Source of the DNA: an uncultured Lachnospiraceae bacterium
Lineage (GTDB): Bacteria > Bacillota > Clostridia > Lachnospirales > Lachnospiraceae
Assembly: GCA_902777355.1 (NCBI GenBank)
Contig: CACYTU010000019.1
Span: forward strand, 1-32,941
DNA length: 32,941 bases
Reading direction: 5' to 3'
This document shows, one piece after another, positions 3,975-29,430 of the stretch (positions are counted from its first letter, which is position 1; each line of letters begins with the position of its first letter). The position numbers were made by a program, and so were the translations under genes. The notes beneath the pieces are model-generated. The model did no database searches and was not told the origin of the DNA. It saw nothing but the letters and a program-made list of their open reading frames with translations.

Positions 3975-4100
3975 TCAGGATTTGCTTTCAAAACACGAAC
4001 AAAACACACTCAAGAAACGTTTAAAACAGCCTCAATACAGATTCAGGATCACATAAAACGCCCATATAATATGCAGCACATATGCGGACCGGACGCAGTA

Positions 4101-4284
4101 ACGTCCGCAGCCAGAACTCAATAAGGCCCGCAGCCAGAACTCAGAAAGGCCCGCAGCCAGAACGCAGAAAACGCCCGCAGCCAAAACGCGGCAACGTCCG
4201 CAGCCAGAACCCAGTAAGGCCCGCAGCCAGAACGCAATAACATCCGCAGCCAAAACGCAGTAAGGCCCAGCAGCCGGAACGCAG
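4101..4284 (+). repeat. Eight tandem 23-bp repeats upstream of udk
   Basis: CCGCAGCCAGAACGCAGTAA-like units recur at 4105, 4128, 4151, 4175, 4198, 4221, 4244 and about 4267. Spacing is 23 bases except for one 24-base interval. Copies differ at a few positions, and the last has CCCAGCAGCC. There are no unique spacers, so this is a minisatellite, not CRISPR. It lies between the minus-strand LOG promoter and the udk promoter. The minus strand can be read as a repetitive W-L-R-A-L peptide but has no credible start. The remainder of the 3728-4441 gap holds the two promoters and a shorter A-rich repeat. Confidence 0.92.
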
Positions 4285-4441: not shown

Positions 4442-5056
4442 ATGGATACAATCGTAATCGGCATCGCCGGTGGGAGCGGGAGCGGCAAGACTACTCTGGC
4501 GGACACACTGGTCAGTTATTTCGGGGAGAATGAGGTCAGTATCCTCCGTCATGACAATTATTATAAAAGAAATGACGATCTCACTTATGAAGAGAGGGCA
4601 AAGCTCAATTATGACCATCCGGATGCCTTTGACACAGAGCTGCTCTGTGAGCATATCCGCCAGCTGAAAGCGGGCAGGCCGATTGACATGCCTGTCTATG
4701 ACTATTCTGTGCACAATCGGTCGGAGAAGACCATCAGGATCCAGCCCAATCCGGTCATCATCCTGGAAGGCATTCTCATCCTGGCCGAACCCAGGCTGGT
4801 CGAGCTGATGGATTTCAAGATTTTTGTGGATACGGACGCTGATGAGAGGATTCTTCGCAGGATCATCCGCGATGTCAATGACAGAGGCCGGTCTCTGGAC
4901 AGTGTCATCAGGCAGTATCGGGAGACAGTCAAGCCTATGCATGACCAGTTCGTGGAACCCAGCAAGAGGAAAGCAAATATTATCATACCCGAGGGGGGCA
5001 GAAACGAAGCGGCCATGCAGGTGATCGTAGAGCTGATCCGAAGCCGCCTCAGATGA
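4442..5056 (+). CDS. udk: Uridine kinase
   Basis: Phosphorylates uridine and cytidine to UMP and CMP in pyrimidine salvage. The 204-residue cytoplasmic protein has a P-loop GGSGSGKTT at residues 10-18, the nucleoside-binding stretch HDNYYK, and NYDHPDAFDTELL, all typical of the uridine kinase/phosphoribulokinase family, and is of normal length. The start at 4442 has GAAAGGA at 4425-4431. It is followed after 212 bases by a nucleoside-importer lipoprotein, so the kinase could trap imported nucleosides as nucleotides. Whether both share one transcript is not clear because the gap contains T-runs and repeats. Confidence 0.95.
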   Translation: MDTIVIGIAGGSGSGKTTLADTLVSYFGENEVSILRHDNYYKRNDDLTYEERAKLNYDHPDAFDTELLCEHIRQLKAGRPIDMPVYDYSVHNRSEKTIRIQPNPVIILEGILILAEPRLVELMDFKIFVDTDADERILRRIIRDVNDRGRSLDSVIRQYRETVKPMHDQFVEPSKRKANIIIPEGGRNEAAMQVIVELIRSRLR

Positions 5057-5200: not shown

Positions 5201-5268
5201 CTGTGCCTGTTTGTGACAGAATGGACGGAATGAACAGCAGCTGTTGAGTGATGATAAAGGAGGAAGCA

Positions 5269-7383
5269 ATGAAAAAGTGTACCAGAGGGGTGGCAGCCGC
5301 CCTGAGTCTGATCCTTTTGCTGTCTCTTGCCGCCTGCCGGTTTGTGCGTCCCGGTGAACTGACCGGGGGCAGCGCGGGTAGCGCGAGCGGCACCGGATCG
5401 AACATGAATCTGGACGTGGGAGATGTGGACGGAAGAGGATGGAAGATCGCCATGATCACGGACACCGGCGGCATCAACGACCAGTCCTTCAACCAGAGCG
5501 CCTGGGAAGGACTGCAGCAGTTGCACAAAGAGACCGGGGCGGAAGTTAATTACATCGAGTCCAAACAGAGCGCTGATTTCACGACCAACTTTGAGACACT
5601 GGTAGACAACGGAAACAGCCTTTGCTGGGCTATAGGTTTTGCGACCGCGGACGCTGTTGTGGAATCCGCCGCCGCCAACCCCGATGTTCACTTTGCCTGC
5701 GTGGACAATGCCTTTGCGGATACTCCGGCTAATGTGACCGGCGTGGTCTTCCGCGCGCAGGAATCTTCCTTCATGGTGGGATACATAGCCGCCGCGGTTT
5801 CAAAGACTGAGAAAGTCGGCTTCGTCGGAGGCATTTCCAGTGAAGTCATCGAGCAGTTCCAGCGCGGTTACGAGGGCGGTGTGGCATATGCCAACCGTGT
5901 CCTGGGCAAGAAGGTCAAGGTCTTTTCCCAGTACGCGGAGAGCTTCTCCGATGCAGCCAAGGGAAAGAGCATTGCCAACAAGATGTTCACTTCCGACGGC
6001 TGTGATGTCGTCTATCACGCGGCGGGAGCCACAGGCATGGGCGTCATCGAGGCAGCCAGGGAAGCCGGAAAGTTCGCCATCGGCGTCGACCGCGATCAGG
6101 CATATCTGGCTCCTGAAAATGTCCTCACTTCTTCTCTGAAAAATGTCAACGTCGCAGTCATGGCAGTCTCCAAGCGCCACATCGCAGGAGAGGAGATCGG
6201 AGGAAATACGCTTTCGTTCGGCCTGTCCGACGGCGCGGTAGGCATCCCGGCTGACCACAGCAATTATTCGGACGAGATCTACACAGAGGCCCTTGAAATC
6301 GGCGAGAAGATCAAGGCAGGAGTCCTGGCTCCTCCCGCGACAGAAGCGGAGCTGGCCGAATTTGAGCAGTTCCTGAAAGACACTCCGGTCAAAGTGCTGA
6401 CAGCACCCGTCAATGATCTTAGCGAAGTGGACGGTTTCGGGCACAAGATCGCCATGATCACAGATACCGGCGGCATCAACGACCAGTCCTTCAACCAGAG
6501 CGCCTGGGAAGGCCTGCAGCAGCTCAATAAAGAGACGGATGCCGAGGTCAACTATATCGAATCCAAGCAGAGCGCGGACTTTACGACGAATTTTGAGACC
6601 CTGGTGGATAACGGAAATGAACTCTGCTGGGGCATCGGCTTCGCCTGCGCGGATGCCGCCATGGAATCCGCGACAGCCAATCCCGATGTGCATTTCGCCT
6701 GTGTCGACAACGCTTACAGTGATATTCCCAAAAACCTGACGGGTGTGGTCTTCCGCTCGGAGGAATCCTCCTTCATGGTCGGTTACATCGCTGCCGCAGT
6801 CTCAAAGACTGAAAAAGTCGGCTTTGTGGGCGGAATCGCCAGCCCTGTCATAGAACAGTTTGAGAGCGGCTACACTGCCGGCGTTGCCTATGCCAACAAG
6901 AAGCTGGGCAAAAAAGTCAAGGTGGCCTCCCAGTACGCGGAGAGTTTCTCTGACGCTGCCAAGGGCAAGAGCATAGCAAATAAGATGTTCACCTCTGATA
7001 ACTGTGACGTCGTCTATCATGCGGCGGGAGCCACAGGCATGGGCGTCATCGAGGCGGCCAGAGAGGCAGGAAAATTCGCGATCGGTGTCGACCGCGACCA
7101 GGCTTATCTGGCACCGAAAAACGTCCTGACCTCCTCGCTGAAAAATGTCAACGTGGCCGTGGACGAAGTCTCCAGAAGGCTGATCGTCGGACAGGAGATC
7201 GGCGGACAGAATCTCTACTTCGGCCTTGCAGAAAACGCGGTCGGAATTCCGGAGAACCACGAGAACTATTCGGATGAGATCTATGAGCAGGCCCTGGAAG
7301 TCGGTGAACTGATCAGAGACGGAAAGATCGTTCCGCCCGCCTCCATGGAGGAGCTGAAAGAATATCTGAAGACACTGAAATAA
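5269..7383 (+). CDS. BMP-family nucleoside-binding lipoprotein with two tandem binding domains
   Basis: Extracellular receptor for an ABC nucleoside importer of the NupN/BmpA (PF02608) type. The 704-residue protein has a lipoprotein signal ending LAAC with the lipidated Cys at residue 23, then a Gly/Ser linker to about 55. Two copies of the BMP domain follow, from K59 to about 380 and from K393 to the end, offset by exactly 334 codons (1002 bp). Both begin KIAMITDTGGINDQSFNQSA, and they match through most of their length, including DVVYHAAGATGMG and GVDRDQAYLAP. Family members normally have one domain of about 350 residues. ATG 5269 follows AAAGGAGGAA. The ABC ATPase and permeases follow directly. 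Substrate (purine or pyrimidine nucleoside) cannot be told; the presence of udk and apt nearby favours nucleosides. Confidence 0.93.
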   Translation: MKKCTRGVAAALSLILLLSLAACRFVRPGELTGGSAGSASGTGSNMNLDVGDVDGRGWKIAMITDTGGINDQSFNQSAWEGLQQLHKETGAEVNYIESKQSADFTTNFETLVDNGNSLCWAIGFATADAVVESAAANPDVHFACVDNAFADTPANVTGVVFRAQESSFMVGYIAAAVSKTEKVGFVGGISSEVIEQFQRGYEGGVAYANRVLGKKVKVFSQYAESFSDAAKGKSIANKMFTSDGCDVVYHAAGATGMGVIEAAREAGKFAIGVDRDQAYLAPENVLTSSLKNVNVAVMAVSKRHIAGEEIGGNTLSFGLSDGAVGIPADHSNYSDEIYTEALEIGEKIKAGVLAPPATEAELAEFEQFLKDTPVKVLTAPVNDLSEVDGFGHKIAMITDTGGINDQSFNQSAWEGLQQLNKETDAEVNYIESKQSADFTTNFETLVDNGNELCWGIGFACADAAMESATANPDVHFACVDNAYSDIPKNLTGVVFRSEESSFMVGYIAAAVSKTEKVGFVGGIASPVIEQFESGYTAGVAYANKKLGKKVKVASQYAESFSDAAKGKSIANKMFTSDNCDVVYHAAGATGMGVIEAAREAGKFAIGVDRDQAYLAPKNVLTSSLKNVNVAVDEVSRRLIVGQEIGGQNLYFGLAENAVGIPENHENYSDEIYEQALEVGELIRDGKIVPPASMEELKEYLKTLK

Positions 7384-7480: not shown

Positions 7481-7514
7481 GAGCTTCTACAGTATTAACG
7501 GAATGGAGGTAGAC

Positions 7515-10157
7515 ATGGCTGCTGAAGTCAGCAACAGATATGCTGTGCAGATGCATGGGATCACCAAGCGCTTCGGGTCCTTTTATGCACTCACAGACGT
7601 CGAACTCGATGTCGAGCAGGGAACCATCCACTCGATTCTGGGCGAGAACGGCGCCGGCAAAAGCACACTGATGAATATCCTCTACGGGCTTTACCGCGCG
7701 GACGAGGGAGAAATTTTCATCAACGGCAAAAAAGTCAATATCAAGAATCCCACGACGGCGATCCAGAACGGGATCGGAATGGTGCACCAGCACTTCATGC
7801 TGGTGGAGAATTTCACCGTCACTCAGAACATTGTCCTGGGCAGCGAGCCCCACAGAGGCATCCTGACCAACATGAAGAAGGCGCGTCAGGACGTTCTGGA
7901 CATTGTTCAAAAATACGGGCTTGAGGTCAATCCGGACGCCCGCATCCGCGATATTTCCGTGGGTATGCAGCAGCGCGTAGAAATCCTCAAGGCGCTGTAC
8001 CGCGGGGCGGAGATCCTGATCCTGGACGAGCCCACCGCCGTCCTGACGGAACAGGAGATCGACGAGCTTCTGGCGATCATGAAGAACCTGATCAAGGACG
8101 GGAAGACGATCATCATCATCACCCATAAGCTCAAAGAGATCCAGGCCTCCTCGGACGTCTGTACTATCATCCGGAGAGGAAAATACATCGACACTGTCCC
8201 TGTAAAGGGCATCACGGAGGACGAGTTGGCTACTAAGATGGTCGGCCACTCGGTCCAGCTGGTCGTCGAGAAGACTCCTCCCCAGCCCAAAGAGGTCGTT
8301 CTGGATATCCAGGATCTGTACGTAAAAAATGAAAAGGGTCTCAATGCCGTCAAGAATCTGAACCTGCAGGTCAGGGCCGGAGAGATCGTGGGTATCGCCG
8401 GCATCGACGGAAACGGCCAGCAGGAACTGACGGATGCCATCAACAATATCCGCAAGACATACAGGGGAAAGATCATTCTCTGCGGTCATGAGATTCAGAA
8501 TCGCAATCCCAAGTACGGCATCGATCTGGGCATGGCCACGATCCCGGCTGACCGCCATAAAGACGGCCTGGTATTGGGCTTTTCCGTGTATGAAAATACG
8601 ATTATTGAAAAATACCGTACCGATGAGTTCTCACCCAGAGGCAGGATCAACCGCAGGAAGATGAGATCCTTTGCGGAGGAACTCATCAAGGCATACGATG
8701 TGCGTCCCGATAACTGCGGGCCTCTGGCGGCAGGCGGTCTGTCGGGCGGTAATCAGCAGAAAATTGTCATCGGCAGGGAAATCGCCAATGATCCCAGACT
8801 CCTGATCGCCATCCAGCCCACCCGCGGTCTGGACGTAGGCGCCATTGAAAACGTTCACAAGATGCTGATCCGGGAGAGAGACAAGGGAGTAGCAGTCCTA
8901 TTGGTCTCATTCGAACTGGACGAGGTCATGAACGTCTCCGACCGCATTGCGGTCATCTATGACGGTCATATTCAGCAGATCTTTGCTCACGGCACCGTGG
9001 ACAACCGGACACTCGGACGAGTGATGGCCGGCGGAAAGCTTGAGGAAGAAGAGCTGAACAAGATTTCCAAAGAGGGCATCTATGAAGAAGCCCCTGAGGA
9101 GAAAGAACCCGAACCTGCTTCATCGGCATTTGCGGCAGCACCCACGGCGCCCGTGGCAGAGGCACCTGCAGCTCCCGCAGCAGCAGTTCCGGCGGCAGCA
9201 CCTGCGGCGCCCATAGCGGAAGCTGTGGCAGCAGTACCGGCGGCAGCGACGGTAGCTGCAGCGGCAGCACCTGCGGCGGCAGAAGCAATACCCGCAACAG
9301 CAACGGCAGCGGCAGCAGCTGAACCTTCAGAGCCCGCGCCAGTACCCGTTCCGGCAGCCGCTGAACCTTCAGCGCCTTCAGCGTCGATTCCGGCTTCCTG
9401 GGCAGGACCTGCTTATGCAGAGCCTGTGGCAGTGGCGGCAACCGCAGCGGAAGAACCTGTTGTGGCAGCGGCAGAAGCTGCTGAACCGGCAGTGGAAACA
9501 CCGGCGGATGCAGCTGTTGAGGCATTGGCAGCAGCCACTGCGGCAGCGGAAGTGCTTCCCTCAGCTTTTGAGGAAACAGAGCCGGAGACAAAAGCCCCTG
9601 CAGTGACACAGGCAGTGCCTGAGGTCAGGGCTTTTATGCCGGAATCCTCCGAAACCCCTGTGGCTTCTGCTGAGACCGTGGCAGATGCCGGGGAATCCGC
9701 AGCAGCGCAGGCCCCTGAAGCAGAAGCGGCAGCAGAACCGGCAGCAGTGGCGGCAGCACCCGCAGAAGCGATAGCTGAGCCTGCAGAAGAACCCGCGGCA
9801 GCGCCCGCAGAGGCGATAGCTGAGCCTGCAGAAGAACCCGCGGCAGCGCCTGCAGAGGCGATAGCTGAGCCTGCAGAAGAACCCGCGGCAGCGCCTGCAG
9901 CAGAAGCGGCAGCAGAACCGGCAGCAGTGGCGGCGGCTGAAGCAGTACCCGCAACAGCACCGGCAGCGGCCGAACCTTCAGAGCCTGCGGCAGCACCTGA
10001 AGAATCTGCTGAGCCTGCAGCAGCTCCTGCAGCTGAGCCTTCGGCAGCAGGCCAAGATATTACGGATATGAAGAAGAGCCTGGCGGACATGCAGCGTAAT
10101 CTTGCAGAGATGCAGAAGATGCTGGAAGAGATGCAGAACCGCCTGGCCGGAATGTGA
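7515..10157 (+). CDS. Double-cassette nucleoside ABC ATPase with long acidic Ala/Pro/Glu tail and C-terminal coiled coil
   Basis: ATP-hydrolysing subunit of the BMP-linked importer (NupO/YufO-like). In 880 residues, the first cassette has Walker A GENGAGKST at 43-51, signature ISVGMQQ and Walker B ILILDEPTA. The second has a degenerate loop GIDGNGQQ, then LSGGNQQ and QPTRGLD, as is usual for this family of about 510 residues. After about residue 515 comes an extra tail of about 330 residues, nearly all Ala, Pro, Glu and Val with only a few Lys or Arg. It ends (848-880) in LADMQRN-LAEMQKM-LEEMQNR-LAGM, perfect heptads with Leu and Met at a and d. ATG 7515 is chosen because GGAGGT lies at 7505-7510; the upstream ATG 7503 overlaps that site. 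The permease follows 25 bases later with its own AAAGGAGG. Confidence 0.93.
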   Translation: MAAEVSNRYAVQMHGITKRFGSFYALTDVELDVEQGTIHSILGENGAGKSTLMNILYGLYRADEGEIFINGKKVNIKNPTTAIQNGIGMVHQHFMLVENFTVTQNIVLGSEPHRGILTNMKKARQDVLDIVQKYGLEVNPDARIRDISVGMQQRVEILKALYRGAEILILDEPTAVLTEQEIDELLAIMKNLIKDGKTIIIITHKLKEIQASSDVCTIIRRGKYIDTVPVKGITEDELATKMVGHSVQLVVEKTPPQPKEVVLDIQDLYVKNEKGLNAVKNLNLQVRAGEIVGIAGIDGNGQQELTDAINNIRKTYRGKIILCGHEIQNRNPKYGIDLGMATIPADRHKDGLVLGFSVYENTIIEKYRTDEFSPRGRINRRKMRSFAEELIKAYDVRPDNCGPLAAGGLSGGNQQKIVIGREIANDPRLLIAIQPTRGLDVGAIENVHKMLIRERDKGVAVLLVSFELDEVMNVSDRIAVIYDGHIQQIFAHGTVDNRTLGRVMAGGKLEEEELNKISKEGIYEEAPEEKEPEPASSAFAAAPTAPVAEAPAAPAAAVPAAAPAAPIAEAVAAVPAAATVAAAAAPAAAEAIPATATAAAAAEPSEPAPVPVPAAAEPSAPSASIPASWAGPAYAEPVAVAATAAEEPVVAAAEAAEPAVETPADAAVEALAAATAAAEVLPSAFEETEPETKAPAVTQAVPEVRAFMPESSETPVASAETVADAGESAAAQAPEAEAAAEPAAVAAAPAEAIAEPAEEPAAAPAEAIAEPAEEPAAAPAEAIAEPAEEPAAAPAAEAAAEPAAVAAAEAVPATAPAAAEPSEPAAAPEESAEPAAAPAAEPSAAGQDITDMKKSLADMQRNLAEMQKMLEEMQNRLAGM
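9762..9896 (+). repeat. Three 45-bp in-frame repeats in the ATPase tail
   Basis: Units at 9762, 9807 and 9852 each encode the 15 residues AEAIAEPAEEPAAAP and differ by only one or two bases. The same GCAGCAGAACCGGCAGCAGT stretch flanks the block on both sides (around 9730 and 9910), so a larger duplication is nested around it. The 45-bp period keeps the frame. The near-identity points to recent expansion. Confidence 0.92.
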
Positions 10158-10182: not shown

Positions 10183-11376
10183 ATGGATCAATCAAGAAGA
10201 AAAGGCTTTTTTGACAACCCCTTTGTCCTGACGGTGATTGCCATAGCGCTCGGTTCCGGAGTGGCCGCTCTTATCCTTCTTCTGGCGGGATTTCCGCCCG
10301 TCGAATCGCTCAAGACACTTGTGACCAGTATGGTGGGGCGTCCCAAAGATATTTCCAGTGTGATCATCAGGAGCACACCGATCATCTTTACAGGCCTGGG
10401 CGTAGCTTTCGCGATCAAGACCGGTCTGTTCAATATCGGCGCGGAGGGTCAGTTCATTATCGGCGCCCTGACAGCTACTGTTGTAGGCAGTATGCTTGAT
10501 TTCCCTAAGCCGGTCGCTATTCTGATGGTAGTTCTGTCCGCCATGCTGGTTTCTGCCATCTATGCGGGAATTGTCGGTGTTCTCAAGGCCAGGTTCGGCA
10601 TTCATGAAGTAATCACCAGCATCATGCTCAACTGGATCGCTCTCTATTTTTCCAACTGGGTGTGCAGCCTTGACTTTTTCCATAAACCCGGCACGGTCGG
10701 CATGTATCCGGTCAACTATTGTACCTACACCATGATCGTTCCCTTCTGGAAGCGGACACCTGAAGGAATGGCCTGGATGGAACAGTATCCGATCCTCAAG
10801 GAGACCCTTGGCAGGACGGATGTAAACGCGGGATTTATCGTGGCTGTGATCGCCGCCCTGATGATTTCGCATCTGCTGAACCGGACCAGAAAGGGCTATG
10901 AGCTCCGCGCGGTCGGTCAGAATATCAATGCAGCCCGCTTCGCTGGTATCAATGTCAACAAGAGCATCGTCCACGCCATGATGATTTCCGGTGCTCTCTG
11001 CGGTCTGGGCGCGGCTCTGTATATTACGGGCCAGTCCCCTCACACAGTCAACACACTGTCCGCCTTTGAAAATGTAGGCTTCAACGGTCTCTCCGTTGCC
11101 TTTATCGCGTTCAGTTCCCCGATCGGGTGTATTTTCACGGGTCTGCTGTTCGGCGGCCTTCTCTACGGAGGAGCCGGGCTTCAGTCACAGATCGGTGCCC
11201 CGACCGAGATCATCAATATCGTGATCGGTGTCATCGTTTTCTTCTGTGCCCTTTCCTATCTGATTCCCCGCTTTATGGAATCCGCTTTCGGCGCCAGGAG
11301 AGCCAGAAGAGAGGCTAAGGCTGCGGCCAGAAGAGCGAAAAAGGCCGCTTCCGGGAAAGGAGGCAACAATGTCTGA
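10183..11376 (+). CDS. Nucleoside ABC transporter permease 1 (NupP/YufP-like)
   Basis: Membrane channel subunit of the BMP-type importer (BPD_transp_2 family). The 397-residue protein has about nine or ten hydrophobic segments beginning at residue 15. It contains the family pattern TPIIFTGLGVAFAIKTGLFNIGAEGQ, then HEVITSIMLNWIALY and YELRAVGQNINAARFAGI, a coupling-helix region. It is somewhat longer than typical members (about 350), mainly through a loop near 165-215 and a C-terminal cytosolic tail (from about 370) that is strongly basic: ARRARREAKAAARRAKKA. Start 10183 follows AAAGGAGG. The next permease begins inside its last codons (8-base overlap), showing translational coupling. Confidence 0.93.
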   Translation: MDQSRRKGFFDNPFVLTVIAIALGSGVAALILLLAGFPPVESLKTLVTSMVGRPKDISSVIIRSTPIIFTGLGVAFAIKTGLFNIGAEGQFIIGALTATVVGSMLDFPKPVAILMVVLSAMLVSAIYAGIVGVLKARFGIHEVITSIMLNWIALYFSNWVCSLDFFHKPGTVGMYPVNYCTYTMIVPFWKRTPEGMAWMEQYPILKETLGRTDVNAGFIVAVIAALMISHLLNRTRKGYELRAVGQNINAARFAGINVNKSIVHAMMISGALCGLGAALYITGQSPHTVNTLSAFENVGFNGLSVAFIAFSSPIGCIFTGLLFGGLLYGGAGLQSQIGAPTEIINIVIGVIVFFCALSYLIPRFMESAFGARRARREAKAAARRAKKAASGKGGNNV

Positions 11377-12289
11377 CAGAGCACTGCTTCTTCTTGGAAT
11401 CACACTCATGTACTCCACACCTATGATTTTCGCGGCACAGGGCAGCGTTATTTCCGAGGTGTCCGGTGTTGTCAATATCGGTATTGAGGGAATGATGACG
11501 ATCGGCGCTTTTGTCGGCGCCGCTGTCGGATATTTTTCCGGAAATCCCTGGCTGGGATTTATCTGCGCGGGACTTGCCGGAGCCTTATTCGGACTCATCC
11601 ATGCTTTCGCGTCGGTGACCTGCAAATCCGACCAGACTGTCTGCGGTATCGCCATGAACCTGATCGGTCCCGGCCTGGCCCTTTTCCTTTGCCGTATCTT
11701 CTTTGAAGGCGGAACCCAGACGCCTCCGGTGACCAACAAGATTCCCAAGCTTTTCGCCAACGGGCTGGAGGGAAGCCTCAATAACCTGAATGTGGACATG
11801 ACCACAGTAATCGCCCTGATCGTCTCCATCCTCATGTGCATTGTATTTTACGGAACCACCTGGGGACTCCACATCAGAGCGGTCGGCGAGCATCCCGGTG
11901 CCGCGGACACCCTGGGAATCAATGTCTACAAGGTCCGCTACATATGTGTGATCATTTCCGGCCTGCTTTCAGGTCTGGGCGGAGCAGCCATGACACTGGC
12001 GATCGTGCCCCAGTTCATGCCGACGGCTATCAGCGGCCAGGGCTTTATAGCGATTGCCGCGGTCATTTTTGGAAAATGGACTCCCCACGGAGGCTACTTT
12101 GCCTGCCTGCTCTTCGGCTTCGCGCAGGCTCTGACAGTCGTCCTGGGCGGCGGAAGCTTTGCTGTTCCCTCCGAGATCCTGGCCATGCTTCCCTATGTCA
12201 TGACTATTCTCGTTCTCATTCTTTTCGTCGGACGCGCTTCGGCCCCCAAGGCCAACGGCGTTCCCTACAACAAGGGATCCAGGGTCTGA
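11369..12289 (+). CDS. Nucleoside ABC transporter permease 2 (NupQ/YufQ-like)
   Basis: Second membrane subunit of the importer, pairing with the preceding permease. The 306-residue protein has eight or more hydrophobic segments, the family stretch GSVISEVSGVVNIGIEGMM near the start, LHIRAVGEHPGAADTLGINV in the cytosolic coupling loop, and FIAIAAVIFGKWTPHGG near the C-terminus. Length and order match B. subtilis NupQ. It starts by overlapping the first permease by eight bases, with GAAAGGAGG just upstream, and ends the operon before the hairpin terminator at 12407. Confidence 0.94.
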   Translation: MSDRALLLLGITLMYSTPMIFAAQGSVISEVSGVVNIGIEGMMTIGAFVGAAVGYFSGNPWLGFICAGLAGALFGLIHAFASVTCKSDQTVCGIAMNLIGPGLALFLCRIFFEGGTQTPPVTNKIPKLFANGLEGSLNNLNVDMTTVIALIVSILMCIVFYGTTWGLHIRAVGEHPGAADTLGINVYKVRYICVIISGLLSGLGGAAMTLAIVPQFMPTAISGQGFIAIAAVIFGKWTPHGGYFACLLFGFAQALTVVLGGGSFAVPSEILAMLPYVMTILVLILFVGRASAPKANGVPYNKGSRV

Positions 12290-18292: not shown

Positions 18293-18338
18293 AGAAAAAT
18301 CGGAAAAGAAGAAGTGTAAAGAATAAGAGGTGCAGTTT

Positions 18339-20054
18339 ATGGAAAACAGGAACGGAAAAGCAGCGGATCAAAGTCTTCGCCGTGACCGCATCAGAGGCAG
18401 TCTGATCGGAGGGGCAGCGGGCGATGCGCTCGGCTATGCGATTGAATTTGATCGTGAAAAAAGTATTTTCAAAAAATACGGGAAAAGCGGAATCACTGAG
18501 TATGAATATGAACCTTTCTCAGGTAAGGCGATTATTTCTGACGACACTCAGATGACTCTTTTCACCGCCAACGGCATTCTCACTGCCCTGACAGCGTCCC
18601 GTCTGAACGGAAGCCCGGTTCCCGCGCGCAGGGCGGTCACTGCAGCCTATCTGGACTGGCTCCGCACTCAGGACATGGCTTATTCATTACATGGGAAAAA
18701 GGAAATTCCCCATATTAAGACAAAGAGCACCTGGCTGGCGGATGTGACTGAACTCTACAGCCAGAGGGCTCCCGGCAATACATGTCTCTCTGCTCTGTAC
18801 AGCCTCAAAGACGAGGGCCAGGCGCCGCTTGATTTTATAAAGACCCGCCCTAATAACAGCAAGGGCTGCGGCGCTGTCATGCGGCTGGCACCTATGGGAA
18901 TGATCGAATGCGACGGCCCCGTTGAATTGATCATGCAGGAAGGTGCGCAGCTGGGCGCGATCACACACGGGAATTCACTTGGTTTTATCCCCGGGGCAGT
19001 GCTGGCCCACATTATCCACAGGATCATTTTCCCGGAAAAGGAAATGACCCTGAAGGAGATTGTCCTCGACGCCAGGGATACCATGCAGAGAGTCTTCAAA
19101 GAGGATGAGAATCTGCCTGTTATGACGGACCTGATCGACAGGGCTGTTTCTCTCTCGGAAAACAGTGACAGTGACCTCAACAATATCCACGCTCTTGGAG
19201 AGGGCTGGGTAGGAGATGAAGCTCTGGCCATCGCCCTTTACTGTGCGCTCAGGCACTGCGATGACTTTTCGGCGGGGCTGATCGCGTCTGTAAACCATAA
19301 AGGGGACAGCGATTCCACAGGAGCTGTCACAGGGAACATTCTGGGGGCACTGTTTGGATTTGATGCCATTGAAGAGAAGTGGAAAAAGAATCTGGAACTA
19401 ATCGATGTGATTTTGGAACTGGCGGATGACATCTCAAAGGGATGCCCTGCTGACAGGGCGGCAATTGAAGCCGACGCCGACTGGTACAGGAAATATGTGC
19501 GCATGCAGTGGAAGCCGGACCAGAAGACCGGTGATGCCGGCGCCACAAAGATCCTGGCGGTCATGGGCGATATCACTGCCGATCAGGGGGTTGAGGCGAT
19601 CGCCAACGCGGCCAATACAAGCCTGCTCGGCGGAGGAGGCGTGGACGGAGCCATCCACCGCGCGGCAGGCCCTGACCTTTTGAAGGAATGCCGCACCCTC
19701 AACGGATGCAGGACCGGAGAGGCCAAGATCACAAAAGCTTACCGCCTTCCCTGCAAATATGTCATTCATACTCCCGGCCCCATCTGGTATGGGGGTGACA
19801 GCAATGAGCGTGAACTTCTAGCCTCCTGCTATCGCTCCTGCCTGCAGCTGGCGGTTGACAACGGGATCCGCTCGATCGCTTTCCCGTCCATTTCTACCGG
19901 TGTGTACTGCTTTCCTCTTGAAGAGGCTGCTGAGATTGCTGTCAAAACTGCCCGAAAGTTTGCCTCAGACCATCCCGGCAGACTTGATGTCATCAAATGG
20001 GTGCTTTTCGACAAGAGGACTTATGAGGCCTATAGGAGCAGAATCAAAGAATAA
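18339..20054 (+). CDS. ADP-ribosylglycohydrolase fused to a MacroD-type macrodomain
   Basis: Two enzymes that remove ADP-ribose sit in one 571-residue chain. Residues about 14-345 are an ADP-ribosylglycohydrolase (DraG/ARH, PF03747): GSLIGGAAGDALGYAIEFD, the metal site SDDTQM (D68, D69), ITHGNSLGFIPG, and a second metal motif GDSDSTGA (D323, D325). After a helical linker, residues 403-571 form a macrodomain: GDITADQGVEAIANAAN (N423, N426), LLGGGGVDGAIH, TGEAKITKAYRLP, YVIHTPGP and PSISTGVYCFP, the MacroD catalytic-loop pattern. All key residues look intact in both halves. ATG 18339 is chosen over GTG 18330 because AGAGG at 18327-18331 fits it. No ADP-ribosyltransferase or sirtuin is present in the window. 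The alpha-amylase begins 46 bases later. Confidence 0.92.
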   Translation: MENRNGKAADQSLRRDRIRGSLIGGAAGDALGYAIEFDREKSIFKKYGKSGITEYEYEPFSGKAIISDDTQMTLFTANGILTALTASRLNGSPVPARRAVTAAYLDWLRTQDMAYSLHGKKEIPHIKTKSTWLADVTELYSQRAPGNTCLSALYSLKDEGQAPLDFIKTRPNNSKGCGAVMRLAPMGMIECDGPVELIMQEGAQLGAITHGNSLGFIPGAVLAHIIHRIIFPEKEMTLKEIVLDARDTMQRVFKEDENLPVMTDLIDRAVSLSENSDSDLNNIHALGEGWVGDEALAIALYCALRHCDDFSAGLIASVNHKGDSDSTGAVTGNILGALFGFDAIEEKWKKNLELIDVILELADDISKGCPADRAAIEADADWYRKYVRMQWKPDQKTGDAGATKILAVMGDITADQGVEAIANAANTSLLGGGGVDGAIHRAAGPDLLKECRTLNGCRTGEAKITKAYRLPCKYVIHTPGPIWYGGDSNERELLASCYRSCLQLAVDNGIRSIAFPSISTGVYCFPLEEAAEIAVKTARKFASDHPGRLDVIKWVLFDKRTYEAYRSRIKE

Positions 20055-21728: not shown

Positions 21729-23030
21729 ATGAGAGACGAAACGAATTATCCTGATTTGGAATCTTCCAATACAGACAGACAAAGGCCGGCAGGCGGAAGG
21801 CAGAGATCCGGCAGCCCGGAAAAGCCATTTCATACACAGGACGCAGGGAAAAGAAGGGGAAACGGTTCATCCAACGGAATAAAAAAACTGTTTACCAGTC
21901 CTTTTCCCTATTTTTTTATGGCTATACTGCTGACCGGTATCCTTCTTTTTTATGGAAAGCAGGATGCCGTACAGACAGCGTCGGTCCGGGATGAAAACCA
22001 GCCTGCACAGACTCAGGACGGAAACCTGCAGGATGAATCGATGATTGAAACTCAGGAAGAAATTCCTCAGGAGGACATCCCTCAGGAGGATATTTCTCAG
22101 GGCGAAATTCCGCTGAACGAAAACCCACAAGGCGAAAATCTACAGACCGAAAATCTGCAAAACGAAAATCCGCAGTCCGGAGTCCCACAGCCCGATAATA
22201 CGCAATCCGGATTCCCACAATCAGATGATCCACAGTCCGGAGTCCCGCAGCCCGATATTCCTCAGCCTGAAAATCCCCAGTCCGGGATTCCGGAGGGAGG
22301 CGCGCAGGCGGAAACTCCCGGCGAGAATCTCCAGGGCGGAGATCAGGCTGGAGATTCCCGGCAGGAGATTCCTGCCGACAACGTAAACCAGGGCAGCGAA
22401 AATACTGATTCCACAGACAGGGAGGATGACATCTCCGTACCTGTTCAGTCGATCACAATCACTGCGGGCACGGATGTCATGGCACAGGGCGACACATTGC
22501 AGCTCACTGCCACCGTATCTCCTTCGAATGCTGACAATACCGCCCTGCTTTGGTTTTCAGACGATGAGACGATCGCCAGAGTGTCCCAGGACGGACTGGT
22601 CACATCGGTGAGCGCCGGATATACCGTGATCTCCGCGGTTTCCAGCAACGGAATCCAGACCGATTTTCCAATCAATGTCTCTTCCTCCCGGAAAGTGATG
22701 ACTTTGACTGTCAGCACTGAATGTACGCAGAATGATAAGGTGGGAAGCAACTGGACTTACAGATATCTGATGAACGGAACCCCGATCCATGCTGTCCAGA
22801 ATATGATGGTTGAGGCGGGAAAAACGATCAGCCTGGAATCCGAGATCATAGAGCACGACGAACAGCCCGACCTGGGCTCTGCCGAGAACAATTATTATGT
22901 CAGACAGTCCGATCTTGAAGATGGATTTGAAATCAGGCAGGAAGTTTTTGTCCAGGAGAACAGACCCAAGCTGGCGGGTAATACGGCTTCCTTTGTTGTG
23001 ACATATCGTTTTTCTGACGCAGTCGAGTGA
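21729..23030 (+). CDS. Membrane-anchored surface protein with a 5-residue-repeat stalk and a Big_2 Ig-like domain
   Basis: In 433 residues: a charged cytosolic N-terminus (1-53), one membrane segment (about 56-75, FFMAILLTGILLFYG), then an extracellular stalk of about 110 residues built of degenerate 5-residue units such as IPQED, NPQGE, NLQTE, NPQSG and VPQPD. A more irregular Gln/Asp/Gly linker follows, then a bacterial Ig-like group 2 domain (about 238-318; VQSITITAGTDVMAQGDTLQ, ending FPINV), and a beta-rich C-terminal part of about 110 residues that I do not recognise. No sortase motif. Orientation (inside-to-outside) follows from the basic residues before the membrane segment. ATG 21729 has AGGAAC upstream. 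Adhesion or cell-wall binding is possible but not shown. Confidence 0.75.
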   Translation: MRDETNYPDLESSNTDRQRPAGGRQRSGSPEKPFHTQDAGKRRGNGSSNGIKKLFTSPFPYFFMAILLTGILLFYGKQDAVQTASVRDENQPAQTQDGNLQDESMIETQEEIPQEDIPQEDISQGEIPLNENPQGENLQTENLQNENPQSGVPQPDNTQSGFPQSDDPQSGVPQPDIPQPENPQSGIPEGGAQAETPGENLQGGDQAGDSRQEIPADNVNQGSENTDSTDREDDISVPVQSITITAGTDVMAQGDTLQLTATVSPSNADNTALLWFSDDETIARVSQDGLVTSVSAGYTVISAVSSNGIQTDFPINVSSSRKVMTLTVSTECTQNDKVGSNWTYRYLMNGTPIHAVQNMMVEAGKTISLESEIIEHDEQPDLGSAENNYYVRQSDLEDGFEIRQEVFVQENRPKLAGNTASFVVTYRFSDAVE

Positions 23031-23194: not shown

Positions 23195-23995
23195 TTGGAT
23201 TATACGAAAATGATTGCGAATTATCATACACATACCTGGCGGTGCAATCACGCATACGGGATTGAAAAGCAATATATCGAGAATGCAATCAGGGCAGGAA
23301 TGCGTATTCTGGGGTTTTCAGACCACACTCCATATCCTTTTCCAAAGGGTTATGTGGGACCGGATAAAATGCTGCCTTCCCAGCTCGAGGACTATGTGGA
23401 CACTGTTCTGCGCCTGCGGGACGAGTACCGCTCCGACATAGAAATCCACCTGGGCCTGGAGGCGGAGTACTACCCGCGGTTATGGGAGGGGCTGCTCCGT
23501 CTGATAGAACCCTATCCCATTGAGTACCTTCTTCTGGGTCAGCACTACATCCACAACGAATATGAAGGAGACCGCTATAACGGGAAACCGGGGCACGGAG
23601 AAGATGATCTGCGGCTTTACTGCAGCCAGTGCAAAGAGGCACTGGATACGGGCAGATTTCTCTATTTTGCCCATCCGGATCTCATCAATTTCAGCGGAGA
23701 TCCGGCCCTTTACGATGATGAGATGACCGCTCTTTGCCGCTTCTGCAAGGAGCGCGGCATTCCGCTGGAAATGAACCTTCTGGGTGTCCGACAGGACAGG
23801 AACTATCCCGACAGACGGTTCTGGCAGATTGCCGCAAAAGAGGGAAATACCCTGATCTACGGAACCGATGCCCACTGGCCTGAACATGTATATTCTCCTG
23901 AAGTGATCCGCAAGGCGGACAGGCTTCTGGAGAGCTATGGGATCCCGCGCGACCGCCTGCTGACGACCCTGCCTCTGAGCGGCTCTGCCTGCTGA
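23195..23995 (+). CDS. PHP-domain phosphatase, histidinol-phosphatase (HisK) type
   Basis: A metal-dependent phosphoesterase of the PHP family; HisK members convert histidinol phosphate to histidinol. The 266-residue product has YHTHTWRCNHA (H11, H13, H19) near the start, GFSDHTPYPF, GLEAEYYP, a conserved LLLGQHYI stretch, FAHPDLINF and IYGTDAHWPEH, which supply the metal ligands. The start is taken as TTG 23195 because GGAGAT (23181-23186) lies 8 bases before it; ATG 23210 is 23 bases away from that site. The frame stays open to 23027, but that stretch is the 27-bp repeat. No other his gene is nearby, so the substrate may differ. The last 14 codons form the first unit of a long tandem repeat. 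Confidence 0.86.
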   Translation: MDYTKMIANYHTHTWRCNHAYGIEKQYIENAIRAGMRILGFSDHTPYPFPKGYVGPDKMLPSQLEDYVDTVLRLRDEYRSDIEIHLGLEAEYYPRLWEGLLRLIEPYPIEYLLLGQHYIHNEYEGDRYNGKPGHGEDDLRLYCSQCKEALDTGRFLYFAHPDLINFSGDPALYDDEMTALCRFCKERGIPLEMNLLGVRQDRNYPDRRFWQIAAKEGNTLIYGTDAHWPEHVYSPEVIRKADRLLESYGIPRDRLLTTLPLSGSAC

Positions 23996-24240
23996 CGGCC
24001 ATGTCTTCGGGCGCAACCGCCTGCTGACGACTATGCCTCTGAGCGGTCCCGCCTGCTTATGACCATACCTCCGGGCGAACCTGCCTGCTGACAGCCTCGC
24101 CTGCTGACGACTATGCCTCTGAGCGGCCCCGCCTGCTTATGATCATACCTCTGGGCGAACCTGCCTGCTGACAGCCTCGCCTGCTGACGACTATGCCTCC
24201 GGGCAGAACCGCCTGCTTATGACCATATCTCCGGATGGGT
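23955..24240 (+). repeat. Ten-unit 32/16-bp tandem array beginning inside the PHP gene
   Basis: GCCTGCT-led units begin at 23955, 23987, 24019, 24051, 24083, 24099, 24131, 24163, 24179 and 24211; spacing is 32 bases except two of 16. A higher-order 80-bp pattern (32+32+16) is visible from 24019. The PHP stop codon TGA (23993-23995) is part of unit 2, whose GCCTGCTGA recurs along the array. It ends about 45 bases before the GNAT-Nudix start. There are no unique spacers, so it is not CRISPR. Confidence 0.95.
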
Positions 24241-29255: not shown

Positions 29256-29430
29256 ATTGATTCATCTATCAGGTGATATATCTATCCGGTGATTCATCTG
29301 TCAGGTTATTCATTTATCCGGTGATTCATCTATCCGGTGATTCATCTGTCAGGTTATTCATTTATCCGGTGATTCATCTATCCGGTGATTCATTTATTAA
29401 GTGATTTATTATTTAGGATTTATTTATTAA
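29256..29430 (+). repeat. 16-bp tandem array, about 11 copies, with a 48-bp higher-order unit
   Basis: Units GGTGATTCATCTATCC, GGTGATTCATCTGTCA and GGTTATTCATTTATCC follow each other from 29272 at 16-base spacing. The three-unit (48-bp) set 29288-29335 repeats at 29336-29383. Decayed AT-rich copies run on to about 29430. There is no frame and no unique spacer. It fills most of the 29232-29522 gap between the HD gene and the small protein; the AT-rich remainder (29430-29522) holds no clear promoter. Confidence 0.95.

Follow-up and report, generated by a model that had tools for sequence, protein, structure and literature searches.

An acidic tail ending in a predicted coil marks the fused ATPase of a putative nucleoside importer in one clade of Lachnospiraceae

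The window, by which we mean the whole stretch of 32,941 nucleotides that was analysed, is one contig of the draft genome of an uncultured Lachnospiraceae bacterium (G000; 3.87 Mb, 150 contigs, completeness 84). It carries an importer operon with a uridine kinase gene upstream, and the features of interest are the following.

4442..5056, + strand, uridine kinase (udk); NCBIfam NF004018 302.9 bits (cut-off 180), TIGR00235 283.7 bits (cut-off 220.3)
5248..7383, + strand, lipoprotein substrate-binding protein (SBP) with two tandem Bmp/PnrA domains, 711 residues; PF02608 in two stretches, E 3.5e-159
7503..9035, + strand, core of a NupO/RbsA-type fused ATPase with two nucleotide-binding domains (NBDs), residues 1-511; PF00005 in two stretches, E 5.8e-47
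9036..10046, + strand, acidic Ala/Glu/Pro linker of the ATPase, residues 512-848 (337 residues); by composition, predicted disordered
9750..9900, + strand, 45-bp in-frame tandem repeat, 3.4 copies (15-residue unit); TRF, 97% match
10047..10154, + strand, C-terminal heptad coil of the ATPase, residues 849-884; heptad pattern, AlphaFold2 helix and profile A1
10183..11376, + strand, permease subunit 1 (NupP-like); PF02653, E 1.2e-36
11269..11373, + strand, basic C-terminal tail of permease 1, 35 residues after LSYLIP, net charge +9
11369..12289, + strand, permease subunit 2 (NupQ-like); PF02653, E 3.1e-39

A PF02608 lipoprotein, a fused ATPase and two PF02653 permeases make up the layout of a PnrA/BmpA-NupOPQ importer, and the family of the SBP together with the neighbouring uridine kinase point to nucleosides as the probable substrate. 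When the four subunits were compared with the NCBIfam models of a putative B6 ABC transporter (NF047927-NF047930), all stayed below the equivalog cut-offs (ATPase 416.8 bits against 670, SBP 113.5 against 400, permeases 126.3 against 400 and 167 against 465). The gene order is identical in all eight fetched loci of the clade described below that hold all four genes (L149, L151, L153-L158). A uridine kinase gene lies upstream in 7 of the 13 fetched clade loci, a count in which L152, L159 and L160 are cut upstream, and there is no trace of it in L156-L158, each with more than 2 kb upstream of the SBP gene. The window is rich in repeat arrays (38 TRF rows, overlapping rows counted), among them those at 4093-4284 (23-bp units), 23947-24234 (32, 64 and 80 bp) and 29258-29397 (16 and 48 bp). 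Positions 18330-20054 encode one protein that fuses an ADP-ribosylglycohydrolase and a Macro domain, and 21729-23030 a protein with one Big_2 domain and coding repeats of 15 and 30 bp.

The ATPase reading frame (7503-10157, + strand) encodes 884 residues with no internal stop. Both marks of the NupO/RbsA type are present, namely two ABC_tran domains in one polypeptide and a NupO-like Walker pattern: the first Walker motifs are intact (GENGAGKST at residue 47, ILILDEPT at 171), the second Walker A lacks the lysine (GIDGNGQQ at 300) and the second Walker B lacks the Asp/Glu (LLIAIQPTRG at 433). The closest relative in the named collection, with 86% identity, is L038 from the uncultured Lachnospiraceae bacterium isolate RUG710. 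No solved relative of the fused ATPase was found in the PDB at E 1e-40, and at E 1e-15 the 60 matches listed of 255 were mostly ABC exporters and amino-acid importer ATPases that align with one NBD.

The initial annotation held that the ATPase overruns the end of its family near residue 515, and this is borne out, as the conserved family end (MAGG) lies at residue 511 and the frame then stays open for 373 more residues. The start that it gave for the feature, 9058, needs correction, since it does not fall on a codon boundary (9057 is in frame). Its acidic low-complexity tail of about 330 residues with a coil at 848-880 agrees well with a linker of 337 residues and an AlphaFold2 helix at 848-883, and its triplicated 15-residue unit is the 45-bp tandem repeat listed above. 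The whole tail has a net charge of -55. With the last 36 residues taken as the coil, the rest is the linker, which is composed to 75% of Ala, Glu and Pro and has 6 Lys and Arg against 60 Asp and Glu. AlphaFold2, run on a single chain with the window protein and 24 aligned rows from named contigs, gave pLDDT values below 50 across nearly all of residues 526-846, so that the linker is predicted to be disordered; the helix is the only one in the tail and is scored at 77-90 (pLDDT averaged by block) from residue 851, and the model of the whole ATPase has a mean pLDDT of 68.6 and a pTM of 0.57. The tail alone matched no Pfam domain above cut-off, hence no known C-terminal regulatory domain, and the two sub-threshold matches are both of the coiled-coil type (PUMA_CC 16.8 bits against 30.1, ATG16 14.8 against 33.7).

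The window's coil has Ile or Leu at position a, Met at d and mostly Gln at e. In the best four heptads all eight a/d positions are hydrophobic and only one of the 20 others is, a regularity that was reached by none of 1000 shuffles of the 48 residues. The four Leu-Met heptads of the initial annotation thus stand as a hydrophobic a/d pattern, except that the first of them has Ile and not Leu at a. Leu at a combined with Met at d would fit a number of oligomer states. The same pattern recurs in the relatives: all eight a/d positions over four heptads are hydrophobic in 11 of the 13 readable coils and seven of eight in the other two, and hydrophobic residues occupy at most two of the 20 remaining positions in each of the 13. 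A profile of these 13 coils (A1) matched 13 PDB sequences, most of which are, to judge from their names, designed coiled coils or bundles. Searched against the 62 genomes of the genus (E <= 1e-4) it matched 13, which are the carriers of the ATPase orthologue minus G323, and it found no coil-bearing genome there beyond the 13 used to build it; further matches lie at E 0.04-1. No second convincing match appeared in the window's own genome, where the next best hit (E 0.06) is a protein with a Helicase_C domain. The one extra match in G325 is weak and also a Helicase_C protein, and we have taken these similar helicase-like hits as chance rather than as a like coil elsewhere.

An ATPase match at E <= 1e-140 is found in 50 of the 62 genus genomes, own genome included, and an orthologue with 83-100% identity in 14 of the 62, the window being one of them and the 13 others at 83-96%. 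All 14, which are drafts in many contigs, have some tail, and in 12, the window among them, linker and coil are in frame with the core. In G323 the tail stops at a contig end within the linker. In G337 (the genome of L038, RUG710), where the core and coil pieces were read separately, the coil follows a Gly-Ser-Pro-like stretch (L038 7770-8020; L150 231-359) and its frame is not that of the core, through a real frameshift or else a mistake in the assembly. Since 11 draft genomes besides the window's have the full tail in frame, an assembly artefact or a chance ORF as its source was rejected, and an artefact at the start of the extension, which the initial annotation had been wary of, is for the same reason very unlikely.

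Outside the clade 153 usable loci were measured and no ATPase among them has a tail longer than 28 residues, which rules out the tail as a trait of the whole ATPase family; the search for C-terminal extensions among relatives that the initial annotation proposed has given full tails in 12 clade genomes and short ends in these outside loci. The first outside set consisted of 131 loci, seven of them ATPases of other groups from the window's own genome, and 129 were usable, with at most 28 residues past residue 505; L092, which has a stop five residues after the start of the match, and L008, an own-genome ATPase with a frame that ends early, were dropped. The 24 further loci, all 21 remaining rows of the genus together with the longest frames of the family scan (G118, G028, G241), have 8-21 residues past residue 505. 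Scans of the family (68 of 299 genomes with an ATPase match, own included; 29 + 3 loci measured and the remainder judged by open-frame length) and of the class (106 of 391, own included; most rows judged by open-frame length and the four longest fetched) yielded no further candidate tail. Three of these four longest class frames are short-tailed and the fourth, L189 (G631:C63), is an ATPase whose open frame continues into permease 1, with 883 residues in all, either a natural fusion or a lost stop.

A midpoint-rooted tree built from 75 ATPase cores unites the 14 in a single clade with a support of 100/100 and a long stem (0.33), and their sister is a group of tail-less ATPases from other genera of the family. 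As the carriers form a single clade, the simplest history is that the tail was gained once and has not been lost in any of the 14. The tail is a genuine addition, specific to this clade, to an importer of a known type.

Within the clade the two parts of the tail have evolved in different ways. The linker is 71-337 residues long in the 12 genomes with a full tail, an almost five-fold spread, and the net charge of these tails goes from -12 to -62. Tandem repeats are present in 11 of the 12 linkers with units that differ between genomes, and all repeat periods listed (up to three per linker) are multiples of three, so the reading frame is kept. The initial annotation would have given up its idea if the tail varied wildly or was broken by stops in relatives; the linker does vary wildly, but 12 of the 13 tails that are not cut by a contig end are open, and the heptad is there in 13 of 13 readable coils. 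The picture of a flexible arm with a regular heptad helix at its tip, as first described, is therefore well in line with the predicted disorder, the predicted helix and the conservation of the arrangement across the clade. Only one column of the coil is invariant and its identity to the window's is 16-48%. Its dN/dS in the five pairs listed is 0.05, 0.35, 0.33, 0.57 and 0.29; for the linker, indels and saturation make this ratio unreliable. The pooled pN/pS is 0.67 for the coil, 0.57 for the linker and 0.14 for the core (core pS 0.53). Beyond the heptad the residues of the coil are weakly constrained.

Two more changes in the operon, which go beyond the initial annotation, are found in the same clade. 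The first is the tandem SBP, with halves that are 81% identical in the window and 74-87% in the nine tandem proteins that could be split by pattern. Ten of the 11 uncut clade SBPs, the window's included, are tandem, nine with two whole domains and that of G336 shortened, and G316 has the sole single-domain one; these two short forms might be repeats collapsed in assembly. All 92 SBPs found outside the clade, of which three are cut at one end, have a single domain. The second is the C-terminus of permease 1, which is longer and more basic in the tail clade (window 11269-11373; L149, L151-L160). Over its last 40 residues 12 clade members have a net charge of 4-10, at least +9 in ten of them and +4 and +6 in the other two, whereas in 106 outside permeases the median is 3 and no value exceeds 7 (Mann-Whitney p 5e-8, kinship ignored). 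Because the three traits have a single origin they count as one co-occurrence and not as repeated evidence. Among the clade members the charge of the linker and that of the permease tail are correlated weakly in the direction expected of attraction between them, and not significantly (rho -0.49, p 0.11, n=12, no correction for kinship).

A multimerising role of the predicted coil is likely, and we propose, with a probability of roughly 0.45, that the tail of the ATPase is a tether that bundles the coils of different importers by way of flexible arms. Each importer complex would hold one fused ATPase; with both NBDs in one polypeptide there would be one coil per transporter and no like partner inside the complex, so that a homotypic bundle would have to join different complexes. 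The linking of several transporters, an idea already put forward in the initial annotation, is on this ground better argued than it was there, one such ATPase per transporter being predicted for the B. subtilis relative NupNOPQ (see below). The coil itself would be the simplest partner, because the rest of the own genome yielded no like coil. Two to four neighbouring complexes may join their coils in a bundle, with linkers that would reach, very roughly, 7-17 nm on average (a polymer estimate with generic scaling constants from general knowledge), enough to bridge neighbours, and the importers would then form clusters in the membrane. Outside the cell each lipoprotein would bring two binding domains, which would make a cluster rich in receptors, and on the inside the acidic linker may touch the tail of permease 1, which is basic and presumably cytoplasmic, a contact that could keep the arm near the membrane and help to hold the ATPase on the permeases. 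The effect would be a better capture and uptake of scarce nucleosides, or an uptake that is concentrated at one place. What speaks against this reading is the weak constraint on the coil beyond its heptad, with a single invariant column, the weak charge correlation, and the clade members that depart from the pattern, two with less basic permease tails and G316 with its single-domain SBP. More tentatively, it is possible that a clustering device of tandem receptor, acidic coil-tipped arm and basic permease tail was gained as a package in this one clade, where ATPases are bundled, clusters are non-covalent and receptors are doubled.

A somewhat unlikely alternative is that the coil docks on a different protein, which would place the importer or channel its substrate; such a protein could be a scaffold, belong to the membrane or the cytoskeleton, or be a salvage enzyme, for instance the uridine kinase encoded next door. 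The plan of a variable disordered linker with a short conserved end motif does resemble that of FtsZ and SSB, and the uridine kinase gene adjoins in 7 of 13 clade loci; against this, it is absent upstream in L156-L158, the own genome holds no like coil and no candidate partner was found, and the surface of the coil is poorly conserved outside a/d and e, which would be unusual for a specific foreign partner. It is unlikely, too, that the acidic tail acts in cis by binding the basic tail of its own permease 1, or the ATPase, and so stabilises the assembly or gates its activity, with the helix as a cap or lock of the arm. That the acidic tail and the more basic permease tail both mark the same clade would fit such a role, but the clean a/d heptad exceeds the needs of charge pairing, the permease tail has (by eye) no heptad for the coil to pair with, the linker lengths vary almost five-fold and the charge correlation is weak. 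That the tail is nearly neutral, a tolerated low-complexity stretch that repeat slippage has enlarged, with the helix as a leftover, agrees with the in-frame repeats by which the linker changes, the low identity and high pN/pS of the coil and the out-of-frame coil of G337, but is very improbable when a tail is present in 14 of 14 members, the frame stays open through linker and coil in 12 of the 13 whose tail no contig end truncates, and the heptad is retained in every readable coil at distances where core pS is 0.53.

If the arm clusters importers as we propose, this would be an ABC importer that is organised in the membrane by its own ATPase, and it would give a handle on the benefit of clustered nutrient importers and on what ATPases with fused NBDs, with their one coil per complex, allow. 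The natural variants of the linker, from 71 to 337 residues, are a ready-made test set, and should the partner be a different one, the conserved tip is still a short bait for finding it. The parts of the open-access literature covered, on coil-ended or disordered tails of ABC ATPases and on tandem binding proteins, describe no such tail, a weak absence given the open-access scope.

The end motif of FtsZ binds other proteins, and the tips of FtsZ and SSB are not known to be heptad coils. Both follow a plan of a disordered linker and a conserved end motif that makes contacts, in SSB likewise with other proteins (PMC12607630, PMC7145534), and the ATPase of the window shares with them the plan of core, disordered linker and short end, by which no homology is claimed. 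Two receptor domains in tandem per importer are also found in GlnPQ of Lactococcus lactis, where the substrate-binding domains are joined to the membrane subunit and have different specificities (PMC8025302). The domains of the window instead form a separate lipoprotein, and the halves are 74-87% alike in the clade. We know of no coil-ended ATPase arm in GlnPQ.

A closer system is NupNOPQ, the guanosine importer of B. subtilis, for which one fused-NBD NupO per transporter has been predicted, and in NupO the second Walker A lacks the lysine and the second Walker B the Asp/Glu (PMC11466899). As a type II importer with fused NBDs, it is like the operon described here in its SBP, one ATPase, two permeases, fused NBDs and degenerate second Walker A and B motifs. 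The window differs from it in the 373-residue acidic coil-ended tail of the ATPase and in the tandem duplication of the SBP, and its permease-1 tail is more basic than those of the 106 outside permeases, among which B. subtilis is not measured by name. The tail-less ATPases from sister genera (G038, G046, G082; L009-L011) are closest in the tree (100/98), with 66-70% identity, and there too the SBP and permease 1 adjoin the ATPase, but the ATPase ends 10-12 residues past residue 505, the SBP has a single domain and the charge of permease 1 is +1 to +6.
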